DNA of 64,000 nt from Marinicauda salina. GTDB lineage: Bacteria > Pseudomonadota > Alphaproteobacteria > Caulobacterales > Maricaulaceae. Positions 1,115 to 62,001 of the stretch are shown in pieces. Numbering within the stretch: position 1 is the stretch's first letter; every line of letters starts with the position of its first letter. The stretch spans positions 561,001-625,000 of the forward strand of contig NZ_QEXV01000003.1 in the NCBI RefSeq assembly GCF_003122085.1. Reading direction: 5' to 3'. A program made the translations under genes and the position numbers. Below the pieces are notes generated by a model. The model saw only the letters and a program-made list of their open reading frames with translations. It was not told the DNA's origin and did not search any database.

Positions 1115-1322
1115 TCGCGCCCCCGCTGTCTCGACGACCTGAGAGATTGGGCGGCCGGGGACGTCGCCGCCCGCGCCGCTTGCTCCTTCGGTGGAATGGC
1201 GATCGAAATCGCCATCCGCTTTCCAGCGTCGGCCTGTTCCCGCGGTCCCTTAGCCTGAGCGTTTCCGGGGCGGTTGCGCCTTCGGCGCCGGCGTCTTCGG
1301 CCGGTCTCTCCCGCGGGGGCCT
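1115..1322 (-). promoter_or_regulatory. Tandem glycine riboswitch upstream of gcvT
   Basis: On the minus strand two consecutive glycine aptamers can be read. Aptamer 1 has GGGAGAGA near 1312-1305, GCCGAAGGCGCAA at 1287-1275, and CTCAGGC followed by AAGGGACCG at about 1259-1242. Aptamer 2 has CTGGAAAGCGG at 1226-1216, CACCGAAGGAGCAA at 1193-1180, AATCTCTCAGGT at 1148-1137 and GACAGCGGGGGCG at 1130-1118. These are the conserved cores of the gcvT RNA motif, joined by a short linker. The second aptamer ends about 57 bases before the gcvT ATG, which leaves room for an expression platform. In this family glycine binding usually turns on glycine cleavage genes; the direction of control here is inferred. 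Confidence 0.93.
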
Positions 1323-1422
1323 CTATGTACCGACTCGCTCGCCGCATGGCGCGCGCTTCGGTGGCGCCACACTACTTTCGAGGCGGCGTCTGTCAATCGC
1401 GCCGACGCACCGGCGCGAGGCG

Positions 1423-18492: not shown

Positions 18493-18616
18493 ACCCCCAC
18501 CCCGACCCTCCCCCGCAGGCGGGGGAGGGAGGCGCTGCGATCAGCCAGGAAGCTCATCATGCGCCGCCGGGCGCGACCCGGCTCCCTCCCCTTGAGGGGA
18601 GGGATGGGGTGGGGTG
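18493..18616. repeat. REPIN-like inverted repeat pair, family A
   Basis: Two GC-rich modules in inverted orientation: CCCCCACCCCGACCCTCCCC with a following GGGGGAGGGAG at the left, and CTCCCTCCCC, a TTGA loop, GGGGAGGG and GGGGTGGGG at the right, with about 50 bp between them. Each module is itself a hairpin and the right module is nearly the reverse complement of the left. The same pair occurs at 52135-52261, 54078-54183 and in degenerate form near 61.6-62.0 kb. Confidence 0.85.
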
Positions 18617-20129: not shown

Positions 20130-21614
20130 TCAGCTCCAGTCGCCGAGCGCGGCCTGCCACAGCGTCAATGCGGCGACCGCGGCGGTGTCGGCGCGCAGGA
20201 TGCGGGGCCCGAGCGTGACCGGGACGACGGAGCCGCATTCGCGCAACCGCGCGCGCTCTTCGGGATCGAACCCGCCCTCCGGGCCGATCAGGACGGCCCA
20301 TTTTCCGGGGTCATACCCCCCACTCGTTCGGCCGGTCGCCCGATCCCCCGGATCGGGCTTTGCGGCCTCACCCCCCGAGGGGGAGGAAGGCGCGTCTGCG
20401 CTCTGCGATTCCACGAATTCGCCCGTCATGGCCGCGCCCTGACTCCCTCCCCTTGAGGGGAGGGTCGGGGTGGGGTGGCCTTCCAGCACCCCGCGAATTG
20501 TCTCGAAGACCCCTTCCGGATTCTCCAGCACTTCATTATTCCAGATCCGCAGCACGCGATAGCCGTTCGCCTCGAACCACGCGTCGCGCTCGGCGTCCCG
20601 GGCGCCGCCGTGTCCGCCGCCGTCGGCCTCCACGATCAGCTTCTCCGAGAGGCAGGCGAAGTCCGCGACGTACGGGCCGATCGCGGCCTGCCGGCGGAAA
20701 TGTCGCCCCGGCTGCTTCAGCGATTTCAGGATCGTCCAGAGCTTCTGTTCGGCCTCGGTCGGCTCTCCGCGCATGCGGCGCGCCGCGGCAAGCGCCTTCG
20801 TCGAAGGCTCCGGCCGCCCCCCACCCCTGCCCTCCCCCAAGGGGGAGGGAGTCGGCGTATGGCGCTCCTCGATCAAACCGTCCTGCGTGACCGCGAAGCG
20901 ATCGGGATCAGATCGCGTCTCGCCGCCTGGAGCGTTTTCTCCTGCTCCCGCCGAAGCTGCAACCTGACTCCCTCCCCCCTCAGTCGGCTTCGCCGACAGC
21001 TCCCCCGCAAGCGGGGGAGCAAACCCTTCGCGGTGGTCGAGCAACGCCTCCAGCATCGGCCGGGCGCGGCCCGTCTCGCCGCCCCAGGGCGCGTCTTCGT
21101 CGTCTCCCGCCTCGTCGCAGAAGACGAGCCGCCGGTCCGCATCCCAGCCGTCGAGCAGGCGGTCGAGGCTCACCGGTTCGCGCACCTCGGGCAGGTCGAG
21201 GCGTTCGGTCTGCTCGGCGGCCTCGCGGGCGATCGCGGCCAGGCGGTCGGTGCGCACGCGCTCGGCGATCGTCCGCCTTGTCATCACCGGGGTGATCGCG
21301 CGCACGCCCAGCTCGGTGGCCTTCTCCACGATGAAATCGGTGCGCGCGCGCTTCACCGGCGCGAAGACAAGCTCGAGATCGGGCGGCGGGGCTTGTTCGC
21401 GCAGCCGCTCGCCGACCGCCAGCGTCGCGGCGCGTTTCGAGGCCTCCGCGACTTCGGCGCGCCATTCGCCGTCGCGGCCGTTGAACACGCGCACGCCGTC
21501 GCCGGGCGCGCGGCGCATGACGTTGACGAGATAGTGCGCGGCCTCGCGCGGCAGCGCGATCTCGGCGCCGGACTCGAGCGGCGCGTCGACATAGAGTCTC
21601 GGCTCGACGGTCAT
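20130..21614 (-). CDS. rsmE: 16S rRNA m3U1498 methyltransferase RsmE carrying an inserted DUF559 domain
   Basis: RsmE methylates N3 of U1498 in 16S rRNA. Here it is 494 residues, about twice the usual 240. Residues 1-194 are the normal N-terminal PUA-like domain and first half of the SPOUT domain (LYVDAPLESG, FAPVKRARTDFIVEKATELG, EAAEQTERLDLPEV). Residues 437-494 are the normal C-terminus with the SAM-binding knot (WAVLIGPEGGF, VTLGPRILRADTA). Between them lie about 240 extra residues. Residues roughly 272-378 form a DUF559 endonuclease-like domain (AEQKLW, HFRRQAAIGPYVADFAC, IVEADGGGH, YRVLRIWNNEVL), flanked by low-complexity peptides encoded by repeat DNA (SPLGEGRGGG, TPTLPSRGGS). The frame is open throughout, so a functional two-part protein is plausible. 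Start ATG at 21614. Confidence 0.9.
   Translation of the reverse strand: MTVEPRLYVDAPLESGAEIALPREAAHYLVNVMRRAPGDGVRVFNGRDGEWRAEVAEASKRAATLAVGERLREQAPPPDLELVFAPVKRARTDFIVEKATELGVRAITPVMTRRTIAERVRTDRLAAIAREAAEQTERLDLPEVREPVSLDRLLDGWDADRRLVFCDEAGDDEDAPWGGETGRARPMLEALLDHREGFAPPLAGELSAKPTEGGGSQVAASAGAGENAPGGETRSDPDRFAVTQDGLIEERHTPTPSPLGEGRGGGRPEPSTKALAAARRMRGEPTEAEQKLWTILKSLKQPGRHFRRQAAIGPYVADFACLSEKLIVEADGGGHGGARDAERDAWFEANGYRVLRIWNNEVLENPEGVFETIRGVLEGHPTPTLPSRGGSQGAAMTGEFVESQSADAPSSPSGGEAAKPDPGDRATGRTSGGYDPGKWAVLIGPEGGFDPEERARLRECGSVVPVTLGPRILRADTAAVAALTLWQAALGDWS
20321..20376 (-). repeat. Family E repeat inside the rsmE reading frame
   Basis: The plus strand reads GTTCGGCCGGTCGCCCGATC, then a hairpin CCGATC/GGATCGGG and GCGGCCTCACCCC. 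The same unit, inverted, is at 23221-23276 upstream of ubiA, differing at only a few positions. Here it encodes rsmE residues about 413-431 (SGGEAAKPDPGDRATGRTSG), just before the SAM-binding knot. Confidence 0.8.
20443..20851 (-). mobile_element. Repeat-bounded DUF559 cassette inserted in rsmE
   Basis: Two family A arms lie in inverted orientation with their GGGGTGGGG ends facing inward: plus-strand CTCCCTCCCC/TTGA/GGGGAGGG then GGGGTGGGG at 20443-20478, and CCCCACCCC then CCCTCCCCC/AA/GGGGGAGGG at 20817-20851. Between them the minus strand encodes about 107 residues of DUF559, a Vsr-related PD-(D/E)XK-like fold. Candidate active residues are Asp318 in YVADFAC and Glu329 in IVEADG (rsmE numbering). 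More repeat DNA flanks it: a family A relative at 20966-21020 and a family E copy at 20321-20376. There is no transposase gene and no intein or intron splice motif that I can recognise. Calling it mobile is inference from the inverted ends and the disrupted host gene. Confidence 0.65.
20966..21020. repeat. Family A-related repeat inside rsmE, N-terminal side of the insert
   Basis: GACTCCCTCCCCCCTCAGTC, then the small hairpin GTCGGCTTCGCCGAC, then GCTCCCCCGCAAGCGGGGGAGC. It resembles the right-hand family A module followed by a perfect hairpin. It encodes rsmE residues about 199-216 (APPLAGELSAKPTEGGGS) and marks the approximate upstream limit of the foreign segment. Confidence 0.7.
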
Positions 21615-50785: not shown

Positions 50786-52078
50786 ATGAAACGCGTTCTG
50801 ACCGCCTGCGCGGCCGCCATCGGGCTTTGCGCCGCCGCCTACGCCCAGGACGAGGCGCCGCTGCGCGTCATCCACGCCGGTCATCTCATCGCCGTGCCCG
50901 GCGAGGAGGCGCGCGAGGACGTCTCGATCCTCGTCCGCGGCGAGCGCATCGAGGCGATCGAGGACGGCTTCGTCACGCCCGAAGGCGCGGAGATCGTCGA
51001 TCTGTCCGACGACTGGGTGATGCCCGGCTTCATCGACAGCCACGTCCACATCCTCTCCGAACTCGGCCCGGGTCGGCGCTTCCAGGCCTTCACCGACGAC
51101 TCAGCCGATCTCGCGCTCGACGGCGCGCGCAACGCGCGCACGACGCTGATGGCAGGCTTCACGACGGTCCAGGACGTCGGCGGCGACTTCTCCGCCGTCA
51201 CCGGCCTGCGCGACGCCATCGCGGCGGGCGACGTGATCGGCCCGCGCATGCGCGTCTCCGGCCCGGCGGTGACGCCCACCGGCGGCCATGCCGACATCAA
51301 CGGGTTCAATCTCGAGGTGCTGCACTACTTCTCCAGCACCAGCGCCTGCGACGGCGCGGACGACTGCCGGCGCGCGGTGCGCGAGCTGGTGCGCGGCGGC
51401 GCGGACGTCATCAAGATCACGGCGACCGGCGGCGTGCTCTCCGACACGGCGGCCGGCGTCGAGCGGCAATTCTTCGACGACGAGCTCGAATCCATCGTCC
51501 AGGCCGCGCACATGATGGGCCGGCGGGTGACCGCCCACGCCCACGGCGAGACCGGCATCGACGCCTTCCTGCGCGCCGGCGGCGATTCGATCGAGCACGG
51601 CACCTATCTCGACGACGAGTCGATCCGTCTGTTCCGGCGCAACGACGCCTATCTCGTGCCCACCGCCATGGCCGGCGAGTACGTCTCGCAGATGGCCGAG
51701 ACCGCCGAGTGGATGACCGACAACCAGCGCGCCAAGTCGCGCCAGGTCGGCCCGCAGATGCTCGACATGGTCCGCCAGGCCCACGAGGGCGGCGTGATGA
51801 TCGCCTTCGGCACCGACTCCGGCGTCTCGCCGCACGGCGACAACGCCCGCGAGTTCGAGCTCTATGTCGAGGCGGGCATGACGCCCGCCGAGGCGATCCG
51901 GACCGCGACGGTGAACGCCTCGCGCCACGTCCAGATGGCCGACGCGATCGGGACGATCGAGACGGGCAAGTACGCCGACATCGTCGCCGTCGACGGCGAT
52001 CCGCTCGCCGACATCTCGGAGCTGCGCGACGTCGACTTCGTGATGATCGGGGGAACGGTGGCGAAGAACGAGGAGTAG
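50786..52078 (+). CDS. Exported metal-dependent amidohydrolase (imidazolonepropionase/prolidase-like)
   Basis: A 430-residue amidohydrolase-superfamily enzyme with a signal peptide (residues 1-21, ending AAAYAQ). Metal ligands are visible as DSHVH near residue 86, the likely carboxylated Lys in VIKITATGG, HAHGE, SIEHGTYLDD and FGTDSGVSPHG. This set is shared with the imidazolonepropionase-like group that includes periplasmic Xaa-Pro and Xaa-Arg dipeptidases, so a peptidase role is likely, but the substrate is not proven. CGGGGAGA lies upstream of the ATG. Confidence 0.9.
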   Translation: MKRVLTACAAAIGLCAAAYAQDEAPLRVIHAGHLIAVPGEEAREDVSILVRGERIEAIEDGFVTPEGAEIVDLSDDWVMPGFIDSHVHILSELGPGRRFQAFTDDSADLALDGARNARTTLMAGFTTVQDVGGDFSAVTGLRDAIAAGDVIGPRMRVSGPAVTPTGGHADINGFNLEVLHYFSSTSACDGADDCRRAVRELVRGGADVIKITATGGVLSDTAAGVERQFFDDELESIVQAAHMMGRRVTAHAHGETGIDAFLRAGGDSIEHGTYLDDESIRLFRRNDAYLVPTAMAGEYVSQMAETAEWMTDNQRAKSRQVGPQMLDMVRQAHEGGVMIAFGTDSGVSPHGDNAREFELYVEAGMTPAEAIRTATVNASRHVQMADAIGTIETGKYADIVAVDGDPLADISELRDVDFVMIGGTVAKNEE

Positions 52079-52134
52079 GTCGTTCTTCGAATCCCCGACC
52101 GACTCCGACCCTGATCGGCGCGGCCGGAACGTCG

Positions 52135-52261
52135 TCCCCCCACCCCGGCCCTCCCCCGAGGGGGAGGGAGAACAGGTGTTCGCGGGCCAATGCATCGCGG
52201 GGACGGGTGCGAGGGCCGCAACCCGACTCCCTCCCCTTGAGGGGAGGGTCGGGGTGGGGTG
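52135..52261. repeat. REPIN-like inverted repeat pair, family A
   Basis: Left module CCCCCCACCCCGGCCCTCCC with GAGGGGGAGGGAG, right module CTCCCTCCCC/TTGA/GGGGAGGG then GGGGTGGGG, separated by about 55 bp of unrelated sequence. It is the cleanest copy of the pair and fills the gap between the amidohydrolase and the APH-like gene. Confidence 0.87.
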
Positions 52262-52331
52262 ATATGACCGACCACGCACCAGCCTCCCGGCGAGTCAGAG
52301 ACGCCGCCTGCAGCCCGCAAAGTAGACGATC

Positions 52332-53387
52332 ATGTCCGAACTCGACGCCCAGTTCTCCGGCACCAAGGACGTCGCCGACGCCCTGAAATTCGATCAGGCC
52401 GGCCTCGAGCGCTGGATGGCGGCGAACGTCGACGGCTATGAGGGACCCCTCACCGTCTCCCAGTTCCGCGGCGGCCAGTCGAACCCGACCTACAAGCTCA
52501 CCACGCCGGGCCGCGAATACGTGCTCAGGCGCAAGCCGCCGGGCAAGCTGCTGCCGTCGGCCCACGCCGTCGACCGTGAGTTCAAGGTGATGGACGCGCT
52601 GGGAGGGGTCGATTTCCCGGTCCCGACCATGCACGGGCTGTGCGAGGACGAGAGCGTCGTCGGCACGGCCTTCTACGTCATGGACTTCGTCGAGGGCCGG
52701 ATCTTCTGGGATCCCTACCTGCCCGATCTCGACAAGGCCGAGCGCCGGGCGATCTACGACGCCTCCAACAAGACGCTCGCGGATCTCCACTCGGTCGACT
52801 ACGAGGCCATCGGGCTCGGCGATTACGGCAAGCCGGGCAACTATTTCCAGCGCCAGATCGGCCGCTGGACGAAGCAGTACAAGGCCGCCGAGACCGAGAC
52901 CATCGAGGCCATGGACCGGCTCATCGAGTGGCTGCCCGAGAACGCCCCGGAGCAGGACCGCACGTCGATCGTCCACGGCGACTATCGCCTCGACAACCTG
53001 ATCTTCCACCCGACCGAGCCCCGGGTCGTCGCGGTGCTCGACTGGGAGCTGTCCACGCTGGGCGATCCGCTGGCCGACTTCACCTACCAGCTGATGCAGT
53101 GGCGCACGCCCAAGGACATCCGCTCGGGCTTCCTCGGCGTCGATCTCGAGGCGCTGGGCATCCCGACCGAAGACGAGTACGTCGCCGCCTATTGCGAGCG
53201 CACCGGCCGCGACGGCCTCGACCAGCTCGATTTCTATTTCGCCTACAACATCTTCCGGCTCGCCGGCATCGCCCAGGGCGTCTATGCCCGCGCCATGCAG
53301 GGCAACGCCTCGAACGAGCGCGCGAAGGAGCTCGGCGCGCTGGTCCGGCCGATGGCGGACTATGCGTGGGGAATGGTGAAGGCGTAG
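52332..53387 (+). CDS. APH-family phosphotransferase (ACAD10/11 kinase-domain-like)
   Basis: A 351-residue protein with the aminoglycoside phosphotransferase/choline kinase fold. It has SQFRGGQSNPTYKLTT, YVLRRKPPGKLLPSAHAVDR with the ATP-binding Lys, the catalytic loop IVHGDYRLDNLIF and VLDWELSTLGDPLADF. This form matches the kinase domain fused to acyl-CoA dehydrogenase in eukaryotic ACAD10/ACAD11, and an acyl-CoA dehydrogenase gene lies 1 kb away at 54401. A role in hydroxy-fatty-acid breakdown by O-phosphorylation of hydroxyacyl-CoA is inferred. Confidence 0.9.
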   Translation: MSELDAQFSGTKDVADALKFDQAGLERWMAANVDGYEGPLTVSQFRGGQSNPTYKLTTPGREYVLRRKPPGKLLPSAHAVDREFKVMDALGGVDFPVPTMHGLCEDESVVGTAFYVMDFVEGRIFWDPYLPDLDKAERRAIYDASNKTLADLHSVDYEAIGLGDYGKPGNYFQRQIGRWTKQYKAAETETIEAMDRLIEWLPENAPEQDRTSIVHGDYRLDNLIFHPTEPRVVAVLDWELSTLGDPLADFTYQLMQWRTPKDIRSGFLGVDLEALGIPTEDEYVAAYCERTGRDGLDQLDFYFAYNIFRLAGIAQGVYARAMQGNASNERAKELGALVRPMADYAWGMVKA

Positions 53388-53400
53388 GCGCGCGGCCTCC

Positions 53401-53522
53401 CATCCTTCGAGGCCCGGCTGATGCCAGGCGCCTCAGGATGAGGGTGAGTCTTGTACAACAGTTCGGCCGGACGATTCCCTCATCCTGAGGTGCGAGCCGC
53501 AGGCGAGCCTCGAAGGATGCGA
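53401..53522. repeat. Family C palindromic repeat
   Basis: CATCCTTCGAGGC at the left and GCCTCGAAGGATG at the right enclose CTCAGGATGAGGG and CCCTCATCCTGAGG, giving a nested inverted repeat about 120 bp long. Just after the APH-like gene. Confidence 0.8.
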
Positions 53523-53534
53523 CGCGAGACGCCC

Positions 53535-53957
53535 CTACCCGCCCAGATGGCCGAGGAAGGGCGCGAGCAGCGCCAACCCCATCGCCGCCTCGAAGCCGAC
53601 GCTGAAGACGTTGTAGCCGGTGCGTGTGTCCCGGCCGGCGTCCAGCGCGAGCGAAACGATGCGCCCGACCGCCATGCCGAACCAGTAGAGCGACGCGGCG
53701 AAGCTCGCCCCGATCACCGAACCGGCGCCGGCCTGGAAGCTCATCGCCAGCGTGAGCAGAACGGCGGCGTGGACGAAAAGGAACCCGCCGCCATAGGAGG
53801 CGCGGAACTCCGCCCAGCCGCCCTTCCAGCGCGGATCGGGCGCGAGTCGGACGACTCCCTGGCCCCAGCGCGGCACGGCGAGGCTTGCCGCGCCCATGAC
53901 GGCGCCGATGAGCGCCGCGCCGGCGGCGATGTACCAGCTTGTCGGCCAATCCAGCAT
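53535..53957 (-). CDS. Small polytopic membrane protein, DUF4345-like
   Basis: A 140-residue membrane protein with four predicted helices (about residues 8-28, 60-77, 80-98 and 118-135). GGGFLFVHAAVLLTL and SLYWFGMAVGRIVSLALD, followed by a short polar loop and a last helix, resemble DUF4345-type proteins. I am not certain of the family. Function unknown. It stands alone between repeat-filled gaps. Confidence 0.72.
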   Translation of the reverse strand: MLDWPTSWYIAAGAALIGAVMGAASLAVPRWGQGVVRLAPDPRWKGGWAEFRASYGGGFLFVHAAVLLTLAMSFQAGAGSVIGASFAASLYWFGMAVGRIVSLALDAGRDTRTGYNVFSVGFEAAMGLALLAPFLGHLGG

Positions 53958-54077
53958 GACGGCGACTCCCGCGTTGGATTCTGAATCATCTTACGCGGGC
54001 GGCGACGGCGCGGATCAGGGGGACGGCCGTCGGTGCGTTCGAGAGGCCTGCGGCGAACTGATGACCGCCGCCTTCCT

Positions 54078-54183
54078 CCCCCACCCCGTCCCTCCCCCGC
54101 AAGCGGGGGAGGGAGATCAGGCCGAGCCCGTCATGGGCCGCAGAAGACTCCCTCCCCTTGAGGGGAGGGTCGGGGTGGGGTGA
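54078..54183. repeat. REPIN-like inverted repeat pair, family A
   Basis: Left module CCCACCCCGTCCCTCCCCC with GCGGGGGAGGGAG, right module CTCCCTCCCC/TTGA/GGGGAGGG then GGGGTGGGG, with about 33 bp between. It is followed immediately by a family B element, so the two families abut. Confidence 0.87.
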
Positions 54184-54279
54184 GTGAAATCCCGGACGCG
54201 CCGAAGGCGCGATCCGGGACCTCTCGGAGATAGCCCTCTCGAAGGCCCCGGCTCTCCCTCCGGTCGGCCGGGGTTTCAC
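54184..54279. repeat. Family B double-hairpin repeat
   Basis: GTGAAAT, hairpin CCCGGACGCGCC/GAA/GGCGCGATCCGGG, a roughly 30 bp spacer, then GGCCCCGGC... CGGCCGGGG and TTTCAC. The outer GTGAAA and TTTCAC ends are perfect inverted repeats. Best-preserved copy of the family. Confidence 0.85.
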
Positions 54280-54283
54280 GAGG

Positions 54284-54376
54284 CCCTCATCCTGAGGGCC
54301 CCGATCCCCGTCCTTCGAGACGCTCGCTTTGCTCGCTCCTCAGGATGAGGGGATCGGGGCGTCTCGAAGGACGAGG
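54284..54376. repeat. Family C palindromic repeat
   Basis: CCCTCATCCTGAGGGCCCCGA, then TCCTTCGAGACGC and GCTCCTCAGGATGAGGGGAT, then CGTCTCGAAGGAC. It completes the 443 bp gap between the membrane protein and the acyl-CoA dehydrogenase, which holds only repeats (families A, B and C in a row). Confidence 0.82.
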
Positions 54377-54400
54377 GCCGTGCGGGCAGAATATCGCCGC

Positions 54401-61564: not shown

Positions 61565-61610
61565 AATTCCCGGACGCGCCGCAGGCGCGATCCGGGACCG
61601 CCCGGCGACA
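61565..61610. repeat. Family B half element
   Basis: Only the first hairpin (TTCCCGGACGCGCCGCAGGC and GCGATCCGGGA) is present. A family A-like pair follows at 61617, suggesting disruption or nesting. Confidence 0.72.
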
Positions 61611-61616
61611 GCCCTC

Positions 61617-61748
61617 CCCTCATCTCACTTCTCCCCTCCATGAGGGGAGAAGGGACGTCAGCGTCGGCGCGCTGTCTCGAAACGTCGCGCCAGGCTCCGA
61701 TTCCTCTCCCCCTGACAGGGGGAAAGGTCAGGTGAGGGGGCGGGGTGA
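61617..61748. repeat. Degenerate family A-like inverted pair
   Basis: CCTCATCTCACTTCTCCCCTCC with ATGAGGGGAGAAG at the left, and CCTCTCCCCCTGACAGGGGG with GGTCAGGTGAGGGGGCGGGG at the right. Same architecture as family A but a distinct sequence subtype. Confidence 0.68.
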
Positions 61749-61844
61749 TTGAATTCCCGGGCGCGCCGCAGGCGCGATCCGGGATCTCTCTGCGAATAGT
61801 CACCCGGAGGCCCCGGCTCTCCCTCCGGTCGGCCGGTGTTTCAA
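61749..61844. repeat. Family B double-hairpin repeat
   Basis: TTGAATTCCCGGGCGCGCC/GCA/GGCGCGATCCGGGA, spacer, then GGCCCCGGC... CGGCCGG and GTTTCAA. Outer TTGAA and TTCAA ends are inverted. It abuts the preceding family A-like pair. Confidence 0.82.
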
Positions 61845-61860
61845 GTTTCAGCCGCATACA

Positions 61861-62001
61861 CCCTCCCTCCCCTTGATGGGGAGGGTCGCGAGCGCAGCGA
61901 GCGGGGTGGGGTGACGGCCGAAGGGCGCTCTATGCTCGCCCCCCCACCCGGCCGGACCTGCGGTCCGTCCACCCTCCCCACGAGGGGGAGGGAGGGAGGG
62001 T
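61861..62001. repeat. Family A arms in outward-swapped order
   Basis: CCCTCCCTCCCC/TTGAT/GGGGAGGG then GGGGTGGGGTG comes first (61861-61912), and CCCCCCCACCC with CCCTCCCCACGAGGGGGAGGG second (61939-62001). The right-type arm thus precedes the left-type arm, the same order that flanks the DUF559 cassette in rsmE but here with only about 26 bp between. Confidence 0.75.

Follow-up and report, generated by a model that had tools for sequence, protein, structure and literature searches.

Inverted pairs of hairpin modules separated by variable centres occur in the intergenic DNA of Marinicauda salina, and the copy at position 52135 raises the question of what these pairs are and which enzyme could have spread them. 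The original prediction regarded them as a population of REPINs. We analyzed the 64-kb stretch of DNA containing this copy (hereafter the window, whose features are listed in Table 1), together with the rest of the genome and with related genomes, designated below by our own numbers (G000 being Marinicauda salina itself, with C for contigs and L for loci).

Table 1. Hairpin units and associated coding features of the window
Feature	Position	Strand	Description
Family-A '-+' unit	52135..52261	.	G-type arm 52138-52170 and T-type arm 52227-52259, inverted; 56-bp centre
Family-A '-+' unit	18493..18616	.	Left arm G-type, right arm T-type
Family-A '-+' unit	54078..54183	.	Left arm G-type, right arm T-type
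Type B hairpin pair, gene-less	61617..61748	.	Subfamily differs from family A
A' variant	61861..62001	.	Additional hairpin between stem and tail
rsmE-like gene (PUA_4 + Methyltrans_RNA)	20130..21614	minus	Split in frame by the arm-DUF559-arm insert
DUF559 (PF04480), Vsr-like PD-(D/E)XK nuclease domain	20484..20795	minus	114 bits
T-type family-A arm	20445..20477	+	C-terminal side of DUF559; in-frame translation HPTPTLPSRGG
G-type family-A arm	20817..20861	-	N-terminal side of DUF559; in-frame translation HTPTPSPLGEGRGGG

In the family to which the 52135 unit belongs (family A), the left arm reads CCCCACCCC-NN-CCCTCCCC-loop-GGGGAGGG and the right arm is its inverse. A strict scan for this module, with each palindrome counted once, returned 10 modules in the window, two of them belonging to the variant at 61861, and none in 100 first-order Markov shuffles of the window; the inverted pairs predicted at 18493, 52135, and 54078 all proved complete. 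Folded as DNA, the 52135 unit formed a single long hairpin (-53.1 kcal/mol, z = -7.2) and none of 200 shuffles folded equally well. The scan and the fold agree with the REPIN architecture, i.e., an inverted doublet of hairpin modules forming one long hairpin. The variants predicted at 61617 and 61861 were also recovered as pairs, but they represent different hairpin subfamilies. In theory, GGGGAGGGNNGGGGTGGGG has the potential to form a G-quadruplex.

Other repeats lie close to these units. A second hairpin repeat, TCCCGGACGCGCCGNAGGCGCGATCCGGGA and its variants, is present at 54190-54219, 61567-61597, and about 61755-61785, often followed by GGCCCCGGCTCTCCCTCCGGTCGGCCGGGGTTTCA; repeats of both kinds are also found between the family-A arms of some '+-' clusters. 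The segment 18392-18430, adjoining a family-A unit, resembles by eye the CGTC/TGTC-tagged REPs (TTCCCGCCTTCGCGGGAATGACGA). An Rfam search of the window at gathering scores retrieved two adjacent glycine riboswitch aptamers (1124-1323, minus strand) and no other match.

Throughout the Marinicauda salina genome (2.89 Mb, 7 contigs), we detected 88 family-A arms with at most two mismatches, 53 of them exact, compared to two for the reversed-pattern control. Four of the 88 arms resemble a related subfamily (GGAGAGGG..GGTGAGG). The arms form 57 clusters, four of which are located in the window; the latter is denser than the genome as a whole, and the hundreds of copies extrapolated from it were an overestimate. 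Arms separated by at most 260 bp form 19 '-+' and 8 '+-' pairs, so that both arrangements are present and, as in REPIN populations, copies are many and dispersed with doublets common. In a set of 200 genomes of the order, 18 contain an exact family-A arm, as do 9 of 15 genomes of one genus. Arms were also detected in the first 70 bases of several contigs (G000:C1:24 and C7:45; contigs C5 and C42 of G133), suggesting that assemblies may break at these repeats and that copies may be missed.

Two types of arms were distinguished: the T-type has the outer end GGGGTGGGGTG and usually a TTGA or TCGA loop, and the G-type has the outer end GGGGTGGGGG and usually a CGCTTGCG or CTCG loop. The 86 non-overlapping arms of Marinicauda salina comprise 42 T, 42 G, and two untyped ones. 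Its 19 '-+' pairs are nine GT, nine TG, and one with an untyped arm, i.e., all 18 typed pairs are heterodimeric (T + G; sign test 8e-6), and seven of the eight '+-' pairs are mixed, the last one being GG. Similarly, 17 of the 18 fully typed '-+' pairs of G205 are mixed and one is TT (sign test 1.4e-4; five others have an untyped arm). G133 has nine mixed pairs out of nine in the '+-' arrangement and two '-+' pairs, both non-mixed, and four of the five '-+' pairs of G034 are TT. The heterodimer rule holds in Marinicauda salina and fails in G034 and in the '-+' pairs of G133. Stem covariation amounted to four both-side changes in 672 cells in Marinicauda salina and none in six other sets, the variation being too small. 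Collapsed units made of a left tail, a single hairpin, and a right tail were observed at G000:C1:631696-631741 and at two loci of G080 (L162 and L163), as expected from a deletion between two palindromes.

The prediction that conserved arms enclose variable centres was borne out, the arms being far more conserved than the centres, which are mostly unrelated to one another within the Marinicauda salina genome. Only 10 of 153 pairs of '-+' spacers scored above the 99th percentile of the null and recent copying is evident for a single pair only (C3:69818 and C3:223317). To judge from their sequences, the units of this genome look old. In the relatives, whose centres were sampled only from the stretches fetched and compared with the same null percentile, related centres were found in 34 of 36 pairs of '+-' centres in G133, in 14 of 21 pairs in G046, 4 of 6 in G080, 3 of 3 in G175, 3 of 10 in G016, and 2 of 10 in G034, and in G205 in 15 of 253 '-+' and 4 of 15 '+-' pairs. 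Copying together with the centre is therefore real in some relatives. The proposal that the pairs spread as units applies to G133, G046, G080, and G175, with their homologous centres, but finds one recent pair in the genome for which it was made.

A candidate for the enzyme involved is encoded in the window itself, where two more family-A arms lie within a coding gene on either side of a DUF559 domain. The minus-strand frame 21653-20130, open over 507 codons (494 from the ATG at 21614), encodes an RsmE-type 16S rRNA methyltransferase (PF20260, PF04452) interrupted by a translated insert consisting of both arms and DUF559. This insert is located between ARPMLEALL and KWAVLIGPEGGF (20268-20303), where the methyltransferase resumes, and the insertion point is identical, and in frame, in G205 and G203. 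Among 59 genomes of the family, the methyltransferase domain was recovered in 57, as one piece in 53 and as two pieces in four (Marinicauda salina, G205, G342, and G347, in the latter on two contigs). The gene is uninterrupted in G133 and G168, which belong to the genus of G203, with 123 and 108 bases at this spot versus 762 in G203. In G342, only a short in-frame insert is present there, which looks like what is left of a hairpin, and a similar remnant (APPLAGELS) accompanies the DUF559 insert in the window gene; judging from these reading frames, hairpins seem to have entered rsmE at this spot more than once.

The window DUF559 matches PF04480 with 113.9 bits, the curated cut-off being 20.6. 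This predicted nuclease domain of about 104 residues is usually encoded by a separate small gene; D45, E56, D58, and H62 are invariant in 24 aligned DUF559 sequences, and the first three are of catalytic type. The DUF559 profile matched 3hrl, an endonuclease-like protein, with 1.4e-33; the mobile intron protein 3r3p (0.0026) and Vsr 1cw0 (0.68) were weak matches, and further matches to repeat proteins and a toxin subunit were disregarded as chance. We take 3r3p to be a Vsr-like (EDxHD) homing endonuclease and Escherichia coli YcjD to be a member of DUF559. A link between YcjD and Vsr was made earlier, according to the portion of PMC1189080 consulted. In Caulobacter, the DUF559 protein VsrA, the one family member for which we came across a functional study, causes a DNA-damage response when the solitary cytosine methylase is missing and, in the excerpt used here, is proposed to be a mismatch-repair nuclease (PMC12907096); the main text of that paper mentions neither palindromes, inverted repeats, and hairpins nor transposition.

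We propose the window DUF559 as the candidate cognate enzyme of family A. A profile search retrieved DUF559 in 24 of 27 genomes of the order (50 matches) and in 37 of 120 genomes drawn from the phylum, some of the latter being weak matches to large proteins. By eye, GC-rich hairpins are visible on both sides of nearly every gene in 30 DUF559 loci. The reverse-complement match between the two 200-bp flanks was scored for 45 genes covering 46 of the 50 matches (four weak ones, 21-27 bits, were left out); it reached 14, a cut-off picked from five, for 32 of the 45 DUF559 genes versus 1 of 89 other ORFs from the same loci. Phylum-wide, with one locus per genome drawn from the 120 genomes, the corresponding figures were 13 of 24 for DUF559 genes of at least 60 bits, 1 of 64 for ORFs, and 0 of 5 for weak hits.

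Typing expressions (A, A', B, and C) written after inspection of the loci tested recognized a hairpin type on both sides of 37 of 69 DUF559 genes. No such case occurred in the three control sets, namely 129 ORFs from search-derived loci, 1239 window slots, and 63 called genes of the window. For at least one side, the counts were 59 of 69 versus 28 of 129, 60 of 1239, and 4 of 63, respectively, and 10 of the 69 genes had no recognized hairpin. The types on the two sides agree in every unambiguous case, five loci being ambiguous between the A and B expressions. Family-A DUF559 genes have family-A arms on both sides in Marinicauda salina, G205, G011, G026, G046, and G080, and on one side in G203 and G207. 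DUF559 genes are thus associated with two-sided hairpins, on which their products may act catalytically. No link between DUF559 and palindromic repeats was found in the open-licence literature, a term search of PMC12306157 being likewise negative. In G203 and G204 (L204 and L189), DUF559 is flanked by A' hairpins with an extra tail hairpin, related to the window variant at 61861; a related gene of G133 (L205) has no recognized hairpin type. A type-A DUF559 gene is present in 8 of the 16 carriers of exact arms versus one (G009) of 11 genomes without them (p = 0.04), a comparison that we dropped as support because it is partly circular, the gene being typed A by the arms beside it.

The hairpin type tracks the lineage of the gene. 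We built a tree of 66 DUF559 proteins (108 columns; three with internal stops were dropped), of which 56 were typed, with four A/B-ambiguous rows assigned to B by eye. The distribution of types required 8 changes versus a shuffled mean of 24.4, and none of 200 shuffles was equally low, in a tree with 23 of its 63 inner branches open. Type C formed one clade (support 95) spanning two host families, and a group with support 99 united the window DUF559 and three further family-A genes from Maricaulaceae. Types A and B required five changes each, and type A' was no more clustered than expected by chance (equally few changes in 26 of 500 shuffles). Host phylogeny by itself does not account for this pattern because the three DUF559 genes of Marinicauda salina carry three different hairpin types. 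The 61617 arms match both flanks of the second of these genes (G000:C4:160187-160495), with 40 of 42 bases for one arm, and the left half of the 61861 variant aligns with DUF559 flanks in G210 and G009; the window contains gene-less repeats for two of the three lineages. As in MITEs, terminal inverted repeats are common to gene-less units and a gene-bearing relative, family-A arms bracketing DUF559 and the 61617 arms corresponding to DUF559 flanks.

Sites fully conserved across distant relatives would, according to the original prediction, have pointed to terminators instead of mobile units. Records of Oceanicaulis, Alkalicaulis, Glycocaulis, and other Maricaulaceae type contain the closest named relatives of the gene at 52332 (best protein identity 84%). 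In G205 (L053), the 52135 site is occupied by a full pair with an unrelated centre; EIL42A08 has one arm and PL25a_bin.92 possible remnants, and the other 14 of the 17 listed relatives have no family-A arm at up to three mismatches, the neighbouring gene differing in some of them. Occupancy of this site is thus shared with one relative, halved in another, and missing from others at this threshold, a mixed outcome for the criterion above. A family-A unit of G133 (L142) could be traced into six relatives with flanks 80-95% identical: about 34 bases separate the flanks in G206, where the site is empty, G203, G204, G207, and G168 have a type-C-like pair, and G210 has unrelated sequence, the family-A unit of G133 itself lying between apparent decayed type-C arms. 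No target-site duplication was seen by eye at the L142 site, whose boundary is blurred by older repeats. At a second site (flanks 75-77% identical), a family-A pair in G205 faces a type-C DUF559 element in G123, and at two shared intergenic sites the arrangement of the pair differs between genomes, '-+' in one and '+-' in the other. Presence/absence and replacement of one subfamily by another thus occur at an orthologous site. Sites that are shared while their content changes would be better explained by conversion into existing hairpins than by random insertion. When the available loci were screened for clean insertions, 10 cases were returned, all of them other repeats or longer segments, with no family-A insertion. 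Separately, two Oceanicaulis genomes with flanks about 90% identical differ by 157 bp of paired hairpin repeats (ATGTCATT..., ...GATCGTCATCCCGGCGAACGCCGGGA), inserted in L070 (3388-3544) relative to L058. We had also read the B-type DUF559 genes of G200, G201, and G209 as sharing a site with their family-A counterparts in G203, G207, and G205, and dropped this reading because the shared flank reads as a neighbouring GCS2-like gene.

With a confidence barely above even, we consider a RAYT-free REPIN-like system with DUF559 as its putative enzyme to be the best explanation. Family-A pairs would be the gene-less members of a small hairpin-ended repeat family whose gene-bearing member encodes DUF559, each DUF559 lineage keeping its own hairpin type and several lineages being able to coexist in a genome. 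A nuclease gene located between its own repeats and weakly similar to a mobile intron protein suggests spread by cutting and repair. DUF559 would recognize and nick or cut its cognate hairpin, either extruded or single-stranded at the replication fork, and the break would be repaired by copying in a unit located elsewhere, with the G/C-rich arms common to both as a guide; this homing-like conversion could carry either the gene or a short centre only. We infer that DUF559 may cut the arms, that cutting would drive copying, and that repair would be homology-based.

Could the units nevertheless be true REPINs, their RAYT having been lost or overlooked? Their inverted doublets, heterodimers, singlets, and collapsed palindromes match the descriptions of REPs in the parts of PMC3116915 and PMC3733652 used here. 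A search with PF01797, however, detected no RAYT/Y1 transposase in Marinicauda salina, with 5 of 14 control genomes positive, and none in 26 relatives, of which 15 are carriers and 11 are not, apart from a marginal match (23.3 bits) in the carrier G175; 14 of the 15 carrier relatives are without it, including G133, G046, and G080, which harbor recent-looking copies. Read directly, the 52135 unit has no GTAG/CTAC tag. RAYT is ruled out as the cognate enzyme by its absence from Marinicauda salina and 25 of the 26 relatives, and descent from true REPINs, already largely refuted, is improbable. The REPIN reading is correct in form, the inverted-doublet architecture being present, and wrong in family: these units are not REPINs by descent. 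A similarly low probability is given to functional sites under selection (terminators, mRNA ends, gyrase or nucleoid-protein sites) that would not be mobile. The conservation of arms far above that of centres would be expected from such sites, as would the sharing of the 52135 site with G205 and the distribution of clusters relative to genes called by our home-made codon-usage caller. Of 56 family-A clusters, 50 are intergenic, five within called genes, and one at an edge; the intergenic ones comprise 29 tandem, 19 convergent, and 2 divergent, and unoccupied gaps of at least 100 bp, obtained by subtraction, about 54, 8, and 29, so that divergent gaps are avoided (2 of 50 clusters versus about 29 of 91 unoccupied gaps, p = 8e-5), as expected if units harm promoters. 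The 28 clusters of G205 are distributed as 22 tandem, 1 convergent, 1 divergent, and 4 within genes. Against functional sites, no T-tract intrinsic terminator was found in 51900-54400, which contains two of the three units, and the identification as intrinsic terminators (a GC stem followed by a T-tract) was rejected for this region; moreover, the exact arm has a patchy distribution in the order, and relatives show one orthologous site either empty or occupied by another subfamily.

It is also conceivable, if rather unlikely, that DUF559 genes are passengers of hairpins spread by a lost transposase, replication slippage, or host recombination, without help from DUF559. This would account for the eight of 16 carriers without a family-A DUF559 gene, and REPs are known as targets of insertion sequences (excerpt of PMC1525189). 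However, passengers would not be expected to have a hairpin type following DUF559's own tree, nor to show one and the same type on either flank in a genome with three types. Still less probable, and in our view very much so, is a role of DUF559 in policing the repeats, by which it would remove or repair hairpins or guard the host from instability without spreading them. Vsr-like repair enzymes act on mispaired DNA, according to the part of PMC12907096 consulted, and collapsed single palindromes do exist; policing nevertheless leaves unexplained why the gene is frequently located between repeats and why their type follows the gene lineage.

The RAYT-free system with DUF559 as its enzyme could be extended beyond this family of genomes. 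DUF559 might be the mobilizing enzyme of a large RAYT-free REP/REPIN-like class across Pseudomonadota, acting as a free-standing Vsr-fold 'homing' nuclease; we put the chances of this wider reading somewhat below even. DUF559 would cut its own hairpin, the gene and gene-less pairs would be copied into related hairpins elsewhere, and copies would sometimes land in frame inside host genes such as rsmE. If true, REPs would have two partner enzymes, the second having evolved independently. For some bacterial REP families, no mobilizing enzyme is known, a question on which the DUF559 link bears; DUF559 itself is common, its relative 3hrl has been solved, and its biological role is not settled. Given a repeatable link between lineage and hairpin, both questions become testable using a single enzyme and a single oligonucleotide. 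The same link offers an explanation for the conservation of arms at a site where centres, and even subfamilies, are exchanged.

Several known systems resemble this one in part. The Caulobacter intergenic inverted repeats (CIR), reportedly described by Chen and Shapiro in 2003, are said to contain GANTC, the CcrM site, within one repeat. They share with family A their intergenic position and, by that description, an inverted-repeat organization. In Marinicauda salina, the foot of the hairpin contains GANTC in 22 of 86 arms, versus 1.1% of background 10-mers; the counts are 2 of 21 in G133 and 0 of 58 in G205, and the CcrM/CIR link was not adopted despite the enrichment in the first genome. CcrM-associated intergenic repeats of Caulobacter are mentioned in the portion of PMC10969869 consulted. 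In the excerpt of PMC3733652, the CGTC-tagged REPs are mostly alphaproteobacterial, no dedicated transposase is reported, their mobilizing enzyme is left as an open question, and a preference for heterodimers, seen in most REP families, is left unexplained. Family A shares the main host group, the lack of a transposase gene, and the heterodimer preference, but differs in sequence and tag: the CGTC/TGTC tag and the 8-9 bp stem beginning with AT pairs were not found, the CCCTCCCC/GGGGAGGG stem having no AT pairs, and a candidate gene is found here.

The REPIN/RAYT system, as described by Bertels and Rainey in the part of PMC3116915 used here, consists of inverted hairpin pairs with conserved ends, singlets being remnants, and of several repeat groups each adjoining its own gene. 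All these features are found here, but the gene is DUF559, unrelated to HUH/Y1 transposases, the 52135 unit has no GTAG, and copies are counted in tens and not hundreds. Fusions between SPOUT methyltransferases and DUF559 are on record in the excerpt of PMC1829167, which describes a C-terminal fusion to COG0565; as here, DUF559 is joined to an RNA methyltransferase in Alphaproteobacteria, whereas the present case is an internal in-frame insert into an RsmE-type enzyme (COG1385) with translated hairpins. Caulobacter VsrA belongs to the same protein family as the window DUF559 but is described as putative mismatch repair, with no repeat link in the portion of PMC12907096 consulted. Vsr-like homing endonucleases, finally, are related by the weak profile similarity (E 0.0026) and by genes that spread by cutting and copying; their genes reside in introns, whereas the DUF559 gene resides between hairpin repeats.
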